Of a DNA stretch of 48,929 nt, positions 32,438 to 36,167 are shown one piece after another. Origin of the DNA: Thermoleophilaceae bacterium (GTDB lineage Bacteria > Actinomycetota > Thermoleophilia > Solirubrobacterales > Thermoleophilaceae). The position numbers were made by a program, and so were the translations under genes. Below the pieces are notes generated by a model, which ran no database searches, was not told the origin of the DNA, and was given only the letters and a program-made list of their open reading frames with translations. Numbering within the stretch: position 1 is the stretch's first letter; every line of letters begins with the position of its first letter. The stretch covers positions 1 through 48,929 of the forward strand of contig JAICRZ010000002.1 of NCBI GenBank assembly GCA_025937135.1, given 5' to 3'.

Positions 32438-33685
32438 GTGGAAGCCCAGCCCGCCGGCGCTCCGGTCGCGAGCGCTTTTCTCGAAGCAGTAGGCCAGGTC
32501 ACCGCCGCCGTCGAGGCCGGCGCGGGCCTGCCCGAGGTCGCGCGCTCGATCGCGCGCGCTCTCGAATCGAGCGTGGTTGTGGTGGACGCGTCCGGGAGCG
32601 TCCTCGCCGTGGCCGCGGCGTCCCCCGCTGACGAACGCGCCGTCCTCACCTCCGGCGAGGTGACGGAGCTGCGCGCGGGCGGCGAGGTGGTGGGCGAGAT
32701 GCGCCATCGCGCGCGTGCCGAGCCGCCGCCGCCGGCGCTCGTCCGCTGGCTTGCCACGCTGCTCGCGCTCGAGGTCGAGCGTGCGCGCGCGCCGGAGCGC
32801 GCGAGTGAGGCGGCTGTCGCCGGGTTCCTGCACGACCTGCTCGACCGCAAGGTCAGCGACATCGAGAACATCGTCGCGCGCGGCAAGGAGATGGGGGTCG
32901 ACCTGGAGGGCGGCGCGAGCGTGATCGTCGCTCGCGCGCACCCGCACGCACCCGAGGAGGGCGACTGGCGCGCGCGCGTGCTGTCGATCGTCGATCGCGG
33001 CGCCCGCGGCGTCTCGACCCGCTCGCTGGCCGCCGCCGTGGAGCTCACCGGCCGGCCGGGCAACCACGACGGCGAGATGCTCGTGATCGTTCCCGGCGAC
33101 GACGCGGCAGTCGCCGGGCGCGTGGCCGAGGCCGTGCGCCGCGAGCTCGAGGCCAACCTCGCGTCGTACTCGATCGCGGTCGCGCTGAGCCGCCCGGCCC
33201 GCAATCCCGCGGACATCCACCGGGCCGGCTCCGAGGCGATGCTCGCCGCCAACGTCGCCGAGGCGCAGGGCACGCAGCTGCTCTCGTTCGAGGACACGGG
33301 CGCGTACCGGCTGCTGCTCCCCGCCATGAGCGAGGACCCCGCCGAACTGCGCCGCTTCCACGATGAGACCGTCGCGCCGCTCGTGGCCTACGACGAGCAG
33401 TACGACACGGAGCTGGTGAAGACGCTCGAGTCGTTCCTGGACGCCGACGGCAACGTCGCGAGGACCGCCGGCACGCTCTTCACCCACCGCCACACGATCC
33501 GCTACCGGCTCGAGCGCGTGCGCGAGCTCACCGGCCTGGACGTCGGCTCGACCGACGGCCGCGAGCGCCTCGGCCTCGGCCTCAAGGCGATGCGCGTCCT
33601 GGGCATAGCGGCGCCGCGCGGACCGGGCGCCGAGCCGGGCACCGAAGCCGGCCGCGTTCCACGCGAGGAACCGGATCGCCCGTAG
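32438..33685 (+). CDS. PucR/CdaR-type transcriptional regulator
   Basis: 415 residues from GTG 32438, one base after the previous stop. The N-terminal part (~25-110) looks like a GAF-type sensor (SSVVVVDASGSVLAVAAAS). The middle is the CdaR GGDEF-like domain (~150-290). ELVKTLESFLDADGNVARTAGTLFTHRHTIRYRLERVRELTGLDV (~328-372) is the PucR C-terminal HTH. Ligand and targets unknown. As the last gene of the metG run it may respond to a metabolite of that operon. The final ~30 residues are disordered. Confidence 0.88.
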   Translation: MEAQPAGAPVASAFLEAVGQVTAAVEAGAGLPEVARSIARALESSVVVVDASGSVLAVAAASPADERAVLTSGEVTELRAGGEVVGEMRHRARAEPPPPALVRWLATLLALEVERARAPERASEAAVAGFLHDLLDRKVSDIENIVARGKEMGVDLEGGASVIVARAHPHAPEEGDWRARVLSIVDRGARGVSTRSLAAAVELTGRPGNHDGEMLVIVPGDDAAVAGRVAEAVRRELEANLASYSIAVALSRPARNPADIHRAGSEAMLAANVAEAQGTQLLSFEDTGAYRLLLPAMSEDPAELRRFHDETVAPLVAYDEQYDTELVKTLESFLDADGNVARTAGTLFTHRHTIRYRLERVRELTGLDVGSTDGRERLGLGLKAMRVLGIAAPRGPGAEPGTEAGRVPREEPDRP

Positions 33686-33929: not shown

Positions 33930-33932
33930 CGT

Positions 33933-34005
33933 TGGGGAGTGGTGTAACCGGTGAGCACGAGGCACTTTGGATGCCTAGGTCCGGGTTCGAGTCCTGGCTC
34001 CCCAA
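33933..34005 (+). tRNA. tRNA-Gln (anticodon UUG)
   Basis: TGGGGAG (33933-33939) pairs with CTCCCCA (33998-34004), discriminator A at 34005. The anticodon stem AGGCA/TGCCT encloses loop CTTTGGA, giving anticodon TTG. The T-arm is CCGGG-TTCGAGT-CCTGG with one G-T pair. CCA is not encoded. An HNH endonuclease gene starts 39 bp downstream. Confidence 0.95.
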
Positions 34006-34044
34006 TCGCGGTTAGGCGTCCGGTCTGGATGCGAACATACGTTC

Positions 34045-34752
34045 GTGAGAGGACCTGCATATACGAGCGCCCAAGCGGCGGAGGCGGTTGCGAACTCGCG
34101 TTCCTACAGCGAGACACTCCGCCGGCTTGGACTGCGAGACGCCGGTGGGAATCACCGCACGCTCCGCCGGCACGTTGAACGCTGGGAGATATCGACAGAT
34201 CATTTCGACCCGAATGCCGGACGGCGAGCGGCAAGCCGGCGCAGAGCAACACCGTTGGACGAGGTTCTCGTCGAGCGCTCGTCGTACAGCCGCGGGCACC
34301 TGAAGGAACGCCTCTACAAGGCCGGCTTGAAGCTGCCGACCTGCGAGCTCTGCGGTCAGGGCAGCACATGGCGCGGGCGCGAGATGTCGCTCGTCCTCGA
34401 TCACATCAACGGTGTCGCTGACGACCACCGCCTCGAGAACCTCCGCATCGTCTGTCCGAACTGCGCAGCGACCCTCGATACCCACTGCGGCAGGAATCCT
34501 CCGTCGCAGGCGGTGCGTGTCTGCGCCTGGTGTGGTGAGACTTTCCGCGCGCGCGAACCCGCGCAGAAATTCTGTTCGCGCTCGTGCTCCAATAGTCGAC
34601 CGCGTCCACATACGAGACAGGTGGCGAGGCCGTCGCGCGCGCAACTCGCGGCGGAGATCTCGAAATTCGGGTTCGTCGAGACTGCGCGGCGCTACGGCGT
34701 GTCGGACAACGCGATCCGCAAGTGGATGCGACGCGGCGCCGAGCATGGCTGA
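34045..34752 (+). CDS. HNH endonuclease with zinc fingers and C-terminal HTH
   Basis: 235 residues from GTG 34045. The N-terminal region (SETLRRLGLRDAGGNHRTLRRHVERW, ~22-47) is a small DNA-binding module. The HNH nuclease (~98-148) has CELCGQG, LVLDHINGVADDHRLENLRIVCPNCAATLDTHCGRN, that is the Asp-His/Asn pair with two CxxC knuckles. CAWCGETF ... KFCSRSCS (~158-180) is a further zinc finger, and ISKFGFVETARRYGVSDNAIRKWMRR the C-terminal HTH. Such free-standing HNH proteins are often beside tRNA genes or in phages. Lower GC and less biased codons than the neighbours suggest transfer. No attachment-site repeat of the tRNA end was found downstream. Confidence 0.85.
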   Translation: MRGPAYTSAQAAEAVANSRSYSETLRRLGLRDAGGNHRTLRRHVERWEISTDHFDPNAGRRAASRRRATPLDEVLVERSSYSRGHLKERLYKAGLKLPTCELCGQGSTWRGREMSLVLDHINGVADDHRLENLRIVCPNCAATLDTHCGRNPPSQAVRVCAWCGETFRAREPAQKFCSRSCSNSRPRPHTRQVARPSRAQLAAEISKFGFVETARRYGVSDNAIRKWMRRGAEHG

Positions 34753-34796: not shown

Positions 34797-36167
34797 ATGG
34801 CCCCGCCCCTCACCGCGCTCATCATGGCCGCGGGCCAGGGGACGCGCATGAGGTCGGAGCTGCCGAAGGTGCTCCACCCGGTCTGCGGCGTCCCCATGGT
34901 CCATTGGGTGATCGCCGCCGCGCGTGCCGCCGGCGCGGATCGTGTCGTGTGCGTCACGCGCCCCGGCGATGGCGTCGCCGAGCACCTGCCCGAGGGCGTC
35001 GAGAGCGCGCCGCAGACCGAGGGCGAGGGGACCGGATCGGCGGTGCTCGCGGCGCGCGAGGCGCTCGAGCAGAGCGAGACGGTCGTGGTGCTGTCGGGCG
35101 ACGTGCCGCTCGTCTCCGCCAAGGTCGTGCAGGGACTCGTGGAGAAGCACCGCGCGGAGCAAGCGGCCTCGACCCTCCTGACCACCGACGAGCTCGACCC
35201 CACGGCATACGGGCGGATCGTGCGCGACCCCGACGGCAGCGTCAAGGAGATCGTCGAGACCAAGAGCACAGAGGGCGTGGCCGACGAGGTCCTCGCGATC
35301 CGCGAGATCAACATCGGCACCTACGCCTTCGACGGCCCGCAGCTGGTGAAGGCGCTCGACGAGGTCGGTGAGACCGACGGCGAGCGCTACCTCACCGGCG
35401 TCTTCCCGATCCTGCGCGAGCGCGGGCTGACGGTGGCCGCCTACAGGACGAGCGACACGCTCGGCGCGATGGGCGTGAACACGCGCGCGGACCTGATGGA
35501 GGTCACCCGCCACGCGCAGTGGCGAGTGCTCGCGCGGCTCGCACGCGCGGGTGTCACGTTCACGGCGCCCGAGTCCGTCGACATCCACGCGACGGTGGAG
35601 ATCGGCGAGGACTCGACCGTCGGCGCGGGCGTGACCTTGCGGGGGCAGACGAAGATCGGCGCGCGCTGCGGCGTCGGGCCGAACACCACGATCACCGACG
35701 CCGAGCTGGGCGACGGCGTGACGCTCCTGCACTCGGTGCTCCAGGACTGCCGCGTCGCGGACGGCGCCACGATCGGCCCGTTCGCCTACCTGCGCCCCGA
35801 GGCCGACGTGCGGGAGGGCGCGAAGATCGGCACCTTCGTCGAGGTCAAGAAGTCGGTGGTGGGCGCGGGGGCGAAGATCCCCCATCTGTCCTACATCGGG
35901 GACGCCGACGTGGGGGAGAAGGCCAACGTCGGCGGCGGAGCGATCACCGCGAACTACCACCGTGGCGCCAAGAACCGAACGCGGATCGGCAAGGACGCGC
36001 GGACCGGCGTTCACAACTCGTTCGTCGCCCCAGTTAGCGTCGGGGACTCGGCGTACACTGGCGCTGGCTCGGTCATCACGGAGGACGTCCCGGACGGGGC
36101 CCTCGGCGTGGCGCGGGCCCGGCAGAAGAACATCGAGGGCTACCGAGAGCGCATAGACCAGGAGTAG
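34797..36167 (+). CDS. glmU: Bifunctional UDP-GlcNAc pyrophosphorylase / GlcN-1-P acetyltransferase
   Basis: 456 residues. The uridylyltransferase domain starts ALIMAAGQGTRMRSELPKVLHPVCG; the left-handed beta-helix acetyltransferase domain (~250-456) has EADVREGAKIGTFVEVKKS, YIGDADVGEKANVGGGAITANY with the catalytic His/Tyr/Asn area, and HNSFVAPVSVGDSAYTGAGSVI. It makes UDP-GlcNAc for peptidoglycan. The 456-residue length is standard. prs follows after 5 bp, as in many bacteria. Confidence 0.96.
   Translation: MAPPLTALIMAAGQGTRMRSELPKVLHPVCGVPMVHWVIAAARAAGADRVVCVTRPGDGVAEHLPEGVESAPQTEGEGTGSAVLAAREALEQSETVVVLSGDVPLVSAKVVQGLVEKHRAEQAASTLLTTDELDPTAYGRIVRDPDGSVKEIVETKSTEGVADEVLAIREINIGTYAFDGPQLVKALDEVGETDGERYLTGVFPILRERGLTVAAYRTSDTLGAMGVNTRADLMEVTRHAQWRVLARLARAGVTFTAPESVDIHATVEIGEDSTVGAGVTLRGQTKIGARCGVGPNTTITDAELGDGVTLLHSVLQDCRVADGATIGPFAYLRPEADVREGAKIGTFVEVKKSVVGAGAKIPHLSYIGDADVGEKANVGGGAITANYHRGAKNRTRIGKDARTGVHNSFVAPVSVGDSAYTGAGSVITEDVPDGALGVARARQKNIEGYRERIDQE

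Follow-up and report, generated by a model that had tools for sequence, protein, structure and literature searches.

We examined a stretch of 48,929 nucleotides (nt) from a Thermoleophilaceae bacterium (assembly GCA_025937135.1, contig JAICRZ010000002.1, positions 1 to 48,929; hereafter the window), in which a tRNA-Gln gene with anticodon UUG is followed closely by a gene for an HNH endonuclease. This gene probably encodes a free-standing, intronless homing endonuclease that is specialised on the tRNA-Gln(UUG) gene and controlled by LexA, the repressor of the SOS response to DNA damage. We infer cleavage, homing and induction from the constant placement of the gene at one isoacceptor, a separate clade at the CUG isoacceptor, outward orientation, patchy presence, a LexA box, viral relatives that lie at tRNA genes, and the variability of the tRNA itself. 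The features of the element, all on the plus strand, are:

33933 to 34005, plus strand: tRNA-Gln (anticodon UUG), no CCA encoded (Rfam RF00005); proposed as the gene that the element targets and at which it is anchored
34018 to 34028, plus strand: GTCCG-type element 5' of the LexA box, recurring in relatives as TCCGTCCG/TCCGTCTG
34032 to 34045, plus strand: LexA/SOS box CGAACATACGTTCG, overlapping the GTG start codon by one base, its last
34045 to 34752, plus strand: intact HNH endonuclease gene, 235 amino acids (open reading frame, Pfam, PHROGs, alignment and AlphaFold2 model)
34333 to 34494, plus strand: HNH/zinc-ribbon core, residues 97-150 (alignment of 48 sequences)
34636 to 34731, plus strand: C-terminal helix-turn-helix (HTH), residues 198-229 (Pfam HTH_Tnp_1 at 0.00093, below the cut-off; three helices in the model)

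The association with tRNA genes extends well beyond the window. A protein search of 61 genomes (the source genome and its relatives) gave matches in 22, and when 399 genomes of the class were searched with a profile, 60 had matches, of which 46 were in the order (families f1-f3) and 14, weaker and with a best E of 2e-19, were elsewhere; ten marginal class rows (nine genomes, E 1e-4 to 1e-3) were left out of the loci fetched. A scan of named genomes added Solirubrobacter phytolaccae, a Conexibacter sp. and a Solirubrobacterales bacterium, as well as a proteobacterial metagenome-assembled genome (L005, 30% identity) in which no tRNA was found within 8.8 kb and which gave no profile match. Once 12 loci fetched twice and the two loci without a profile match (L005 and L099) had been omitted, tRNA-Gln or tRNA-Thr was present in 65 of 69 distinct profile-hit loci: tRNA-Gln(UUG) in 40, tRNA-Gln(CUG) in 22 and tRNA-Thr(UGU) in three. 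The four remaining loci were three contig edges (L031, L083 and L097) and one marginal match outside the order (L098). All 62 tRNA-Gln-linked nuclease genes point away from the tRNA, 38 from its 3' side in the same direction and 24 divergently from its 5' side, and within f1-f3 and the named relatives every distinct profile-hit locus with a tRNA in reach held tRNA-Gln. Linkage to tRNA genes is the rule in this HNH family, not a coincidence. The three Thr-linked genes (L089, L092 and L094) are divergent HNH relatives from families f10 and f12, with no LexA box within one mismatch.

In a tree of 93 rows, from which additional duplicates and rows that were short or weak had been omitted and which included 42 of 80 viral loci, the CUG-linked proteins formed one clade with support 100, and all four labels together required 4 changes compared with a mean of 40.3 after shuffling. 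Several genomes, such as G003, G005, G015, G022, G023 and G051, carry a copy or piece at both isoacceptors, which indicates that the choice of tRNA is kept even though the other gene is available. Many CUG-linked copies are partial matches or contain stop codons, with divergence and decay not separated for each copy. The source genome (2.97 Mb in 273 contigs, 82% complete) has one full HNH copy; a second family member is a fragment with a stop at a contig edge (L097, 1-93, contig C208). We also considered insertion at the 5' and 3' sides of the tRNA as two lineages and rejected this, since the side switches seven times among UUG-linked proteins; it seems instead that the tRNA flips while the nuclease stays downstream of it.

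Presence of the gene can be compared at a single locus, flanked by two conserved neighbours:

34797 to 36167, plus strand: glmU (named by reading its sequence), conserved downstream neighbour by which the tRNA-Gln(UUG) locus is recognised in relatives
32438 to 33685, plus strand: gene for what we take to be a PucR-like regulator, conserved on the other side in many relatives

The tRNA-Gln(UUG) gene lies some 40-750 nt upstream of glmU whether the nuclease gene is present or not. Among 40 loci from genomes without a match there, 36 keep the tRNA in this position, three f4 genomes have no tRNA-Gln(UUG) there and one locus is ended by a contig end; none of the 36 empty loci has GAACN4GTTC beside the tRNA. 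The best empty-site pair is with G001, of the same genus as the source genome, in which the flanks show 83% and 87% DNA identity, the nuclease is absent, and the syntenic tRNA-Gln lies on the opposite strand and is 71% identical to that of the window. Six genera (g1, g2, g12, g17, g21 and g30) include both genomes with the gene and genomes without an intact gene at this locus. Two "empty" loci, L155 and L170, retain beside the tRNA a fragment for an RKWVR-like C-terminus, a motif absent from shuffled sequence; it was composed after L155 had been seen, and only L170 is independent. At L179, promoter-like sequence alone seems to be left, as judged by eye. Presence in 22 of 61 genomes, empty synteny and remnants describe a gene of sporadic occurrence, the locus of which is occupied in some genomes and empty in others, and HNH and glmU distances are weakly correlated (r = 0.20, p = 0.011, n = 28). 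The original prediction would have been in difficulty had the HNH gene stood at the same place in all relatives with a vertical phylogeny; patchy presence, the six mixed genera, this low correlation and the remnants describe a different history.

The box ahead of the nuclease gene, CGAACATACGTTCG, matches the operator CGAACACATGTTCG found before lexA of the source genome. The pattern CGAACNNNNGTTCG occurred 14, 19, 12 and 20 times in four genomes, compared with 2, 0, 3 and 0 times for the reversed control, and was present upstream of lexA in all four (LexA_DNA_bind, 2.6e-25, for lexA of the source genome). It also precedes ImuB-like, dnaE2, dinB, recN, uvrA, uvrB and ruvC genes in at least one of the four genomes; these names were read from predicted proteins, and confirmation by Pfam is limited to lexA and the ImuB-like gene, both in the source genome. 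For comparison, the SOS motif of Mycobacterium tuberculosis is given as MKWMTCGAAMRYWTGTTCGA in the available text of PMC4181829. At UUG loci, the spacer that separates tRNA from nuclease contains a perfect box in 33 of 40 cases and one with at most one mismatch in 37; this count keeps the near-duplicate pairs L002/L055 and L004/L052, and with one of each dropped the values are 31/38 and 35/38. Among the 22 CUG loci, 13 have a perfect box and 16 have one within one mismatch. The HNH gene is thus predicted from its box to be under LexA control and damage-inducible. No Shine-Dalgarno sequence was evident between box and start, and translation is probably leaderless. The GTCCG-type element, spotted by eye in spacers and remnant loci and left uncounted, is possibly a promoter element. 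A weaker GAACN4GTTC palindrome lies inside the start of the HNH gene (window 34092-34103). Separately, lexA adjoins tRNA-Leu(GAG) divergently in all four genomes (L109, 2967-3144; L039, L124 and L136), an arrangement that stays constant, unlike that of the flipping tRNA-Gln.

The tRNA-Gln(UUG) gene is itself unusually variable in the families that carry the nuclease. Median pairwise identity of its 3' half was 0.733 in f1, 0.710 in f2 and 0.697 in f3 (27, 26 and 14 loci, leaving out L067, L002-L004 and three loci unmatched by the pattern), compared with 0.968 in f9, 0.967 in f7, 0.967 in f5 and 0.935 in f8 (14, 16, 16 and 15 genomes), where the HNH family is absent or marginal and where the set, one YTTTGGTCCCG row per genome from 61 of 65 genomes among the matches listed, with f6 not included, may favour conserved rows. 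ARAGORN confirmed tRNA-Gln(TTG) in five YTTTGGTCCCG rows and in 0 of 13 other rows. Among the matches listed, the best full-length matches in relatives were 82-100% identical for tRNA-Phe, -His, -Trp and -Cys of the source genome and 79-84% for its tRNA-Gln. Within genera, median tRNA-Gln identity was 0.96 where both genomes lacked the nuclease (14 pairs, a single genus supplying six), 0.74 where one carried it (12 pairs) and 0.75 where both did (14 pairs). The window tRNA-Gln is more similar to the tRNA of another genus (0.87) than to that of its congener (0.71). Orientation relative to glmU varies as well: at loci without the gene, the tRNA is codirectional in 17 and opposed in 19, and both states occur inside genera g1, g2, g9, g30 and g47. 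We read this variability, with or without the gene, as a probable mark of past rounds of gain and loss. The suggestion in the original prediction that the tRNA gene itself may be the target gains support from it, and from fidelity to the isoacceptor. Movement of the tRNA and HNH gene as one unit was also examined and found unsupported (partial Mantel r = -0.03, p = 0.67), although tRNA distances may be saturated.

The protein combines an HNH core with two CxxC pairs, a further pair of cysteine doublets and a C-terminal HTH. Pfam matches were HNH_3 (0.0026), HNH (0.0076) and HTH_Tnp_1 (0.00093), all under curated cut-offs, while phrog_10822 spans residues 4-229 with E 2e-46. Residues C100, C103, D119, H120, N132, C137 and C140 are invariant across the 48 aligned sequences and, together with the phrog_10822 match, identify a homing-family nuclease domain with conserved catalytic residues. 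The AlphaFold2 model had a mean pLDDT (predicted local distance difference test) of 91 and a pTM (predicted template modelling score) of 0.55. A fold search of BFVD with this model gave 24 matches at E <= 0.001, of which 16 are named HNH; the same search of the PDB gave none at that threshold, and a sequence search against solved structures gave nothing useful. For the N-terminal 96 residues, no Pfam family was listed up to E 10. One plasmid record matched the protein.

ARAGORN found a single tRNA in the window, tRNA-Gln with anticodon TTG (33932-34007, plus strand), and the HNH open reading frame begins 39 bp past the tRNA end at 34005 with a GTG codon, no other in-frame start being present in its first 60 codons. 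Its GC content is 0.655 and its GC at third codon positions (GC3) is 0.75, compared with 0.92-0.95 in its neighbours (0.92 in the PucR-like gene, 0.945 in glmU and 0.94 in prs, which follows glmU; both names by reading the sequence). The original prediction had described a tRNA-Gln with an HNH reading frame 39 bp on, less biased codons than in either flank, and a multi-zinc HNH protein with an HTH; ARAGORN, Rfam and the reading-frame coordinates bear out the first, GC3 the second, and the CxxC pairs and C-terminal HTH, as seen with Pfam, PHROGs and the AlphaFold2 model, the third. Its further view of a free-standing homing-type nuclease that is no simple integrative element is also supported, given patchy presence and the lack of an attachment-site repeat or an intron. 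An integrative element (integrative and conjugative element or prophage) at the tRNA was rejected: the last 40 nt of the tRNA share no exact word longer than 11 nt with about 7 kb on either side, in agreement with the absence of a tRNA 3'-end repeat noted before, and no integrase-like reading frame is adjacent, the HNH frame being the only one between tRNA and glmU (read by eye; an integrase profile search was not run). A hidden intron was likewise rejected, since the tRNA is continuous and its locus (L001) shows no Rfam family besides the tRNA at gathering scores.

Tracing the box through the source genome led to a second, unrelated nuclease family with the same habit. Two PDDEXK_5 (PF11645) genes lie at tRNA-Ala(GGC) and tRNA-Tyr (L104 and L107; contigs C103 and C142), and the family was found in 24 of 61 genomes. 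All 30 rows examined (L219-L248, of 39 listed; L238 and L247 are pieces of one gene) were tRNA-linked: 21 to Ala(GGC), five to Ala(UGC), two to Tyr, one to Thr and one to Arg. Full-length matches end about 0-90 nt from the tRNA, and the reading frames of L036 and L104 extend into the tRNA gene. An upstream box within one mismatch was present in 20 of the 30, 16 of them perfect, and none of these was at Ala(UGC) or Thr. The LexA box, this second tRNA-linked family and the tRNA flips go beyond the original prediction.

Other genes also carried boxes. At L102 (contig C72 of the source genome), a perfect LexA box at 2889 ends at the GTG start of a 395-residue LAGLIDADG protein, in a locus where no tRNA or other Rfam family was found at gathering scores. 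At L106 (contig C133 of the source genome), an SOS-boxed gene encodes a radical-SAM-like protein (by reading) with an apparent intein, for which the Hom_end_hint match was below cut-off, and similar genes occur in L041 and L043. In G047 (L116, 2050-2916), the gene for a 229-residue protein with two HTH motifs is preceded at 34 nt by a LexA box and closely followed by an 85-nt tRNA called as Asn-GTT; for the protein, Pfam shows no nuclease domain.

Viral relatives of the HNH protein share its preference for tRNA genes. Among 50,697 phage records, 197 had a match, all below 60% identity. A scan of viral contigs gave 301 relatives, of which the best 80, some of them identical proteins, were kept: a tRNA was present in the fetched stretch in 80/80 and within 300 nt in 76/80, with many isotypes represented, and no perfect SOS box lay within 200 nt upstream of any of the 80. 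By annotation, the relative in Enterococcus phage 113 follows tRNA-Asn, that in Escherichia phage SP22 adjoins tRNA-Leu and that in Pseudomonas phage vB_PaeS_B8 sits between two tRNAs; no annotated tRNA was near the relative in one Staphylococcus phage and one Streptomyces phage. An HK97-type HNH set had a tRNA in 0/80 loci, but its genes are almost identical to one another, which makes it a weak control. In its closer part, the HNH family is thus largely tRNA-linked, and its chromosomal branch seems to have added LexA control.

The mechanism that we propose, as the most economical account of these observations, treats the element as a parasite specific to tRNA-Gln genes. LexA would normally repress the nuclease gene; upon DNA damage LexA would be removed and the nuclease made along with other SOS genes. 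The nuclease would then cut a tRNA-Gln(UUG) gene free of the element, either in incoming DNA or in the resident gene when the element arrives, and recombination repair would copy the element and the neighbouring tRNA into the break. Over many rounds of cutting and repair, altered tRNA sequences would be selected and some tRNA genes would end up flipped or replaced, and the element would later decay by deletion, after which the cycle could restart. The tRNA is upstream of the nuclease in 62/62 tRNA-Gln cases with its strand free, which is consistent with repair reversing or replacing the tRNA. A bolder form of this mechanism, possible but offered tentatively, takes the mobile unit to be the pair of tRNA-Gln and SOS-gated nuclease, acting as a natural cleave-and-rescue drive: the nuclease would destroy the tRNA-Gln(UUG) gene already in place, and an altered, uncuttable tRNA-Gln would arrive on the repair template together with the nuclease gene. 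If true, it would account for a window tRNA unlike its congener's, hypervariability in carrier families and not in four other families of the class, and either tRNA orientation at a fixed locus. Unrelated nuclease families of this order would then have evolved in like manner at further tRNA genes, in many cases with SOS timing.

Other explanations fit parts of this evidence. The gene could be a phage-derived HNH gene tamed by its host, to whose benefit an SOS-induced nuclease would act against incoming phage tRNA genes or in repair, with the place beside the tRNA inherited from phage tRNA arrays or protecting the resident copy. The LexA box and the phage relatives that adjoin tRNA genes would suit this, as would the 13E12 HNH genes, which are LexA-linked with a proposed role in repair according to the available text of PMC4181829. 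However, presence is patchy even inside genera, several copies are decayed or remnants, and a separate clade at the second Gln isoacceptor suits a site-specific parasite better; we consider domestication unlikely. A stress-induced nuclease that cleaves tRNA-Gln as RNA, with the variable tRNAs as resistant versions, would also fit isoacceptor fidelity, tRNA variability and the N-terminal 96 residues without a listed Pfam family, but the zinc-ribbon HNH core and the HTH indicate DNA, viral relatives are flanked by many tRNA isotypes, and the unrelated DNase fold PDDEXK_5 has the same habit, which makes it very improbable that RNA is the substrate. Lastly, tRNA genes are known integration sites, and a lower-GC gene at a tRNA, as in the window, could be ordinary cargo at a general insertion hot spot. 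Such hitch-hiking is hardly credible for a gene with 62/62 placement at tRNA-Gln in f1-f3 and the named relatives, always outward, alone between tRNA and glmU (as read without an integrase profile), with no repeat of the tRNA end and with a perfect SOS box in 33/40 UUG loci.

Several observations weigh against a homing endonuclease acting on tRNA-Gln(UUG). At the third position of the classical HNH motif, chromosomal copies have Ala and the consensus of the wider alignment has Asn, such that nuclease activity should not be taken for granted. With genera as the unit, the within-genus contrast in tRNA identity is weak (p = 0.054 with g15 dropped, 0.12 with g15 kept). Identity in f1, f2 and f3 is 0.738, 0.733 and 0.733 without the gene and 0.719, 0.710 and 0.677 with it, a comparison that includes L067; a tRNA signature separating loci with and without the gene was sought and not found (medians 0.73 and 0.72); and tRNA distance is uncorrelated with HNH (r = -0.02) or glmU (r = 0.07) distance. 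Given this similar variability, lack of signature and lack of correlation, a cause general to the order and unconnected with the nuclease is possible, and constraint on tRNA-Gln(UUG) may be relaxed in this order for another reason. The small correlation between HNH and glmU distances implies that part of the history may be vertical. Finally, recA was not recognised among the genes behind exact boxes in the four genomes, and none of the three Thr-linked loci has a box within one mismatch.

The best-known free-standing homing endonucleases are those of phages. Here, two unrelated nuclease families seem to be established at chromosomal tRNA genes of one bacterial order and to share the host DNA-damage switch, and SOS control would time cutting to active DNA repair. 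If the homing mechanism is true, selfish nucleases can steer how a gene at the core of translation, tRNA-Gln(UUG), evolves, and the system would be a natural, damage-gated analogue of gene drives in which the effect of a parasite on tRNA sequence is testable. A literature search, with subscription journals mostly outside it, gave no paper on a homing endonuclease under LexA control and none in which homing, LexA control and a chromosomal tRNA target come together, and damage control of the nuclease and the unusual variability of the adjoining tRNA look new.

Among known systems, the phage HNH proteins of phrog_10822 type (e.g., ORF162 of Enterococcus phage 113, and those of Felixounavirus and Pakpunavirus) likewise lie beside tRNA genes, and the Enterococcus phage 113 protein has 40.9% identity over 97% of the window HNH query; the window protein was assigned to phrog_10822, and the phage examples are grouped with it by likeness. 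They are phage-borne, occur at many tRNA isotypes and have no SOS box, whereas the window gene is chromosomal, fixed at tRNA-Gln and has a LexA box at its start. I-Ssp6803I-type PD-(D/E)XK nucleases (PF11645, of which we take I-Ssp6803I to be a member) have the same tRNA-linked, SOS-boxed habit with a fold unrelated to the window HNH; the prototype is intron-encoded, whereas the PF11645 genes here are free-standing. The 13E12-family HNH genes of M. tuberculosis, which are of the DUF222 type, are likened to the window gene by regulation. According to the available text of PMC4181829, they are tied to the LexA regulon, with an SOS box (MKWMTCGAAMRYWTGTTCGA) close to that of the window; they differ in forming a repeat family for which that text mentions neither homing nor a link to tRNA genes. 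Mycobacterial tRNA clusters to which a phage origin is ascribed also contain HNH genes, as stated in the accessible part of PMC6582537. The T-even phage nuclease SegB is, like the window HNH, free-standing and located among tRNA genes; it differs in nuclease family (GIY-YIG), in being phage-borne and in having a predicted late phage promoter and, in the portion of PMC2988022 available, no LexA control. That portion lists its insertion site as tRNA-Arg/tRNA-Ile and its target as a "tRNA intergenic region", and breaks made by T6 SegB include sites inside tRNA genes in the text available from PMC13096335. We observed that the motif reported for SegB, RAWTSGAAC, as given in the text available, is the reverse complement of a tRNA T-loop. 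By analogy, T6 SegB is the nearest apparent functional parallel to the window HNH.
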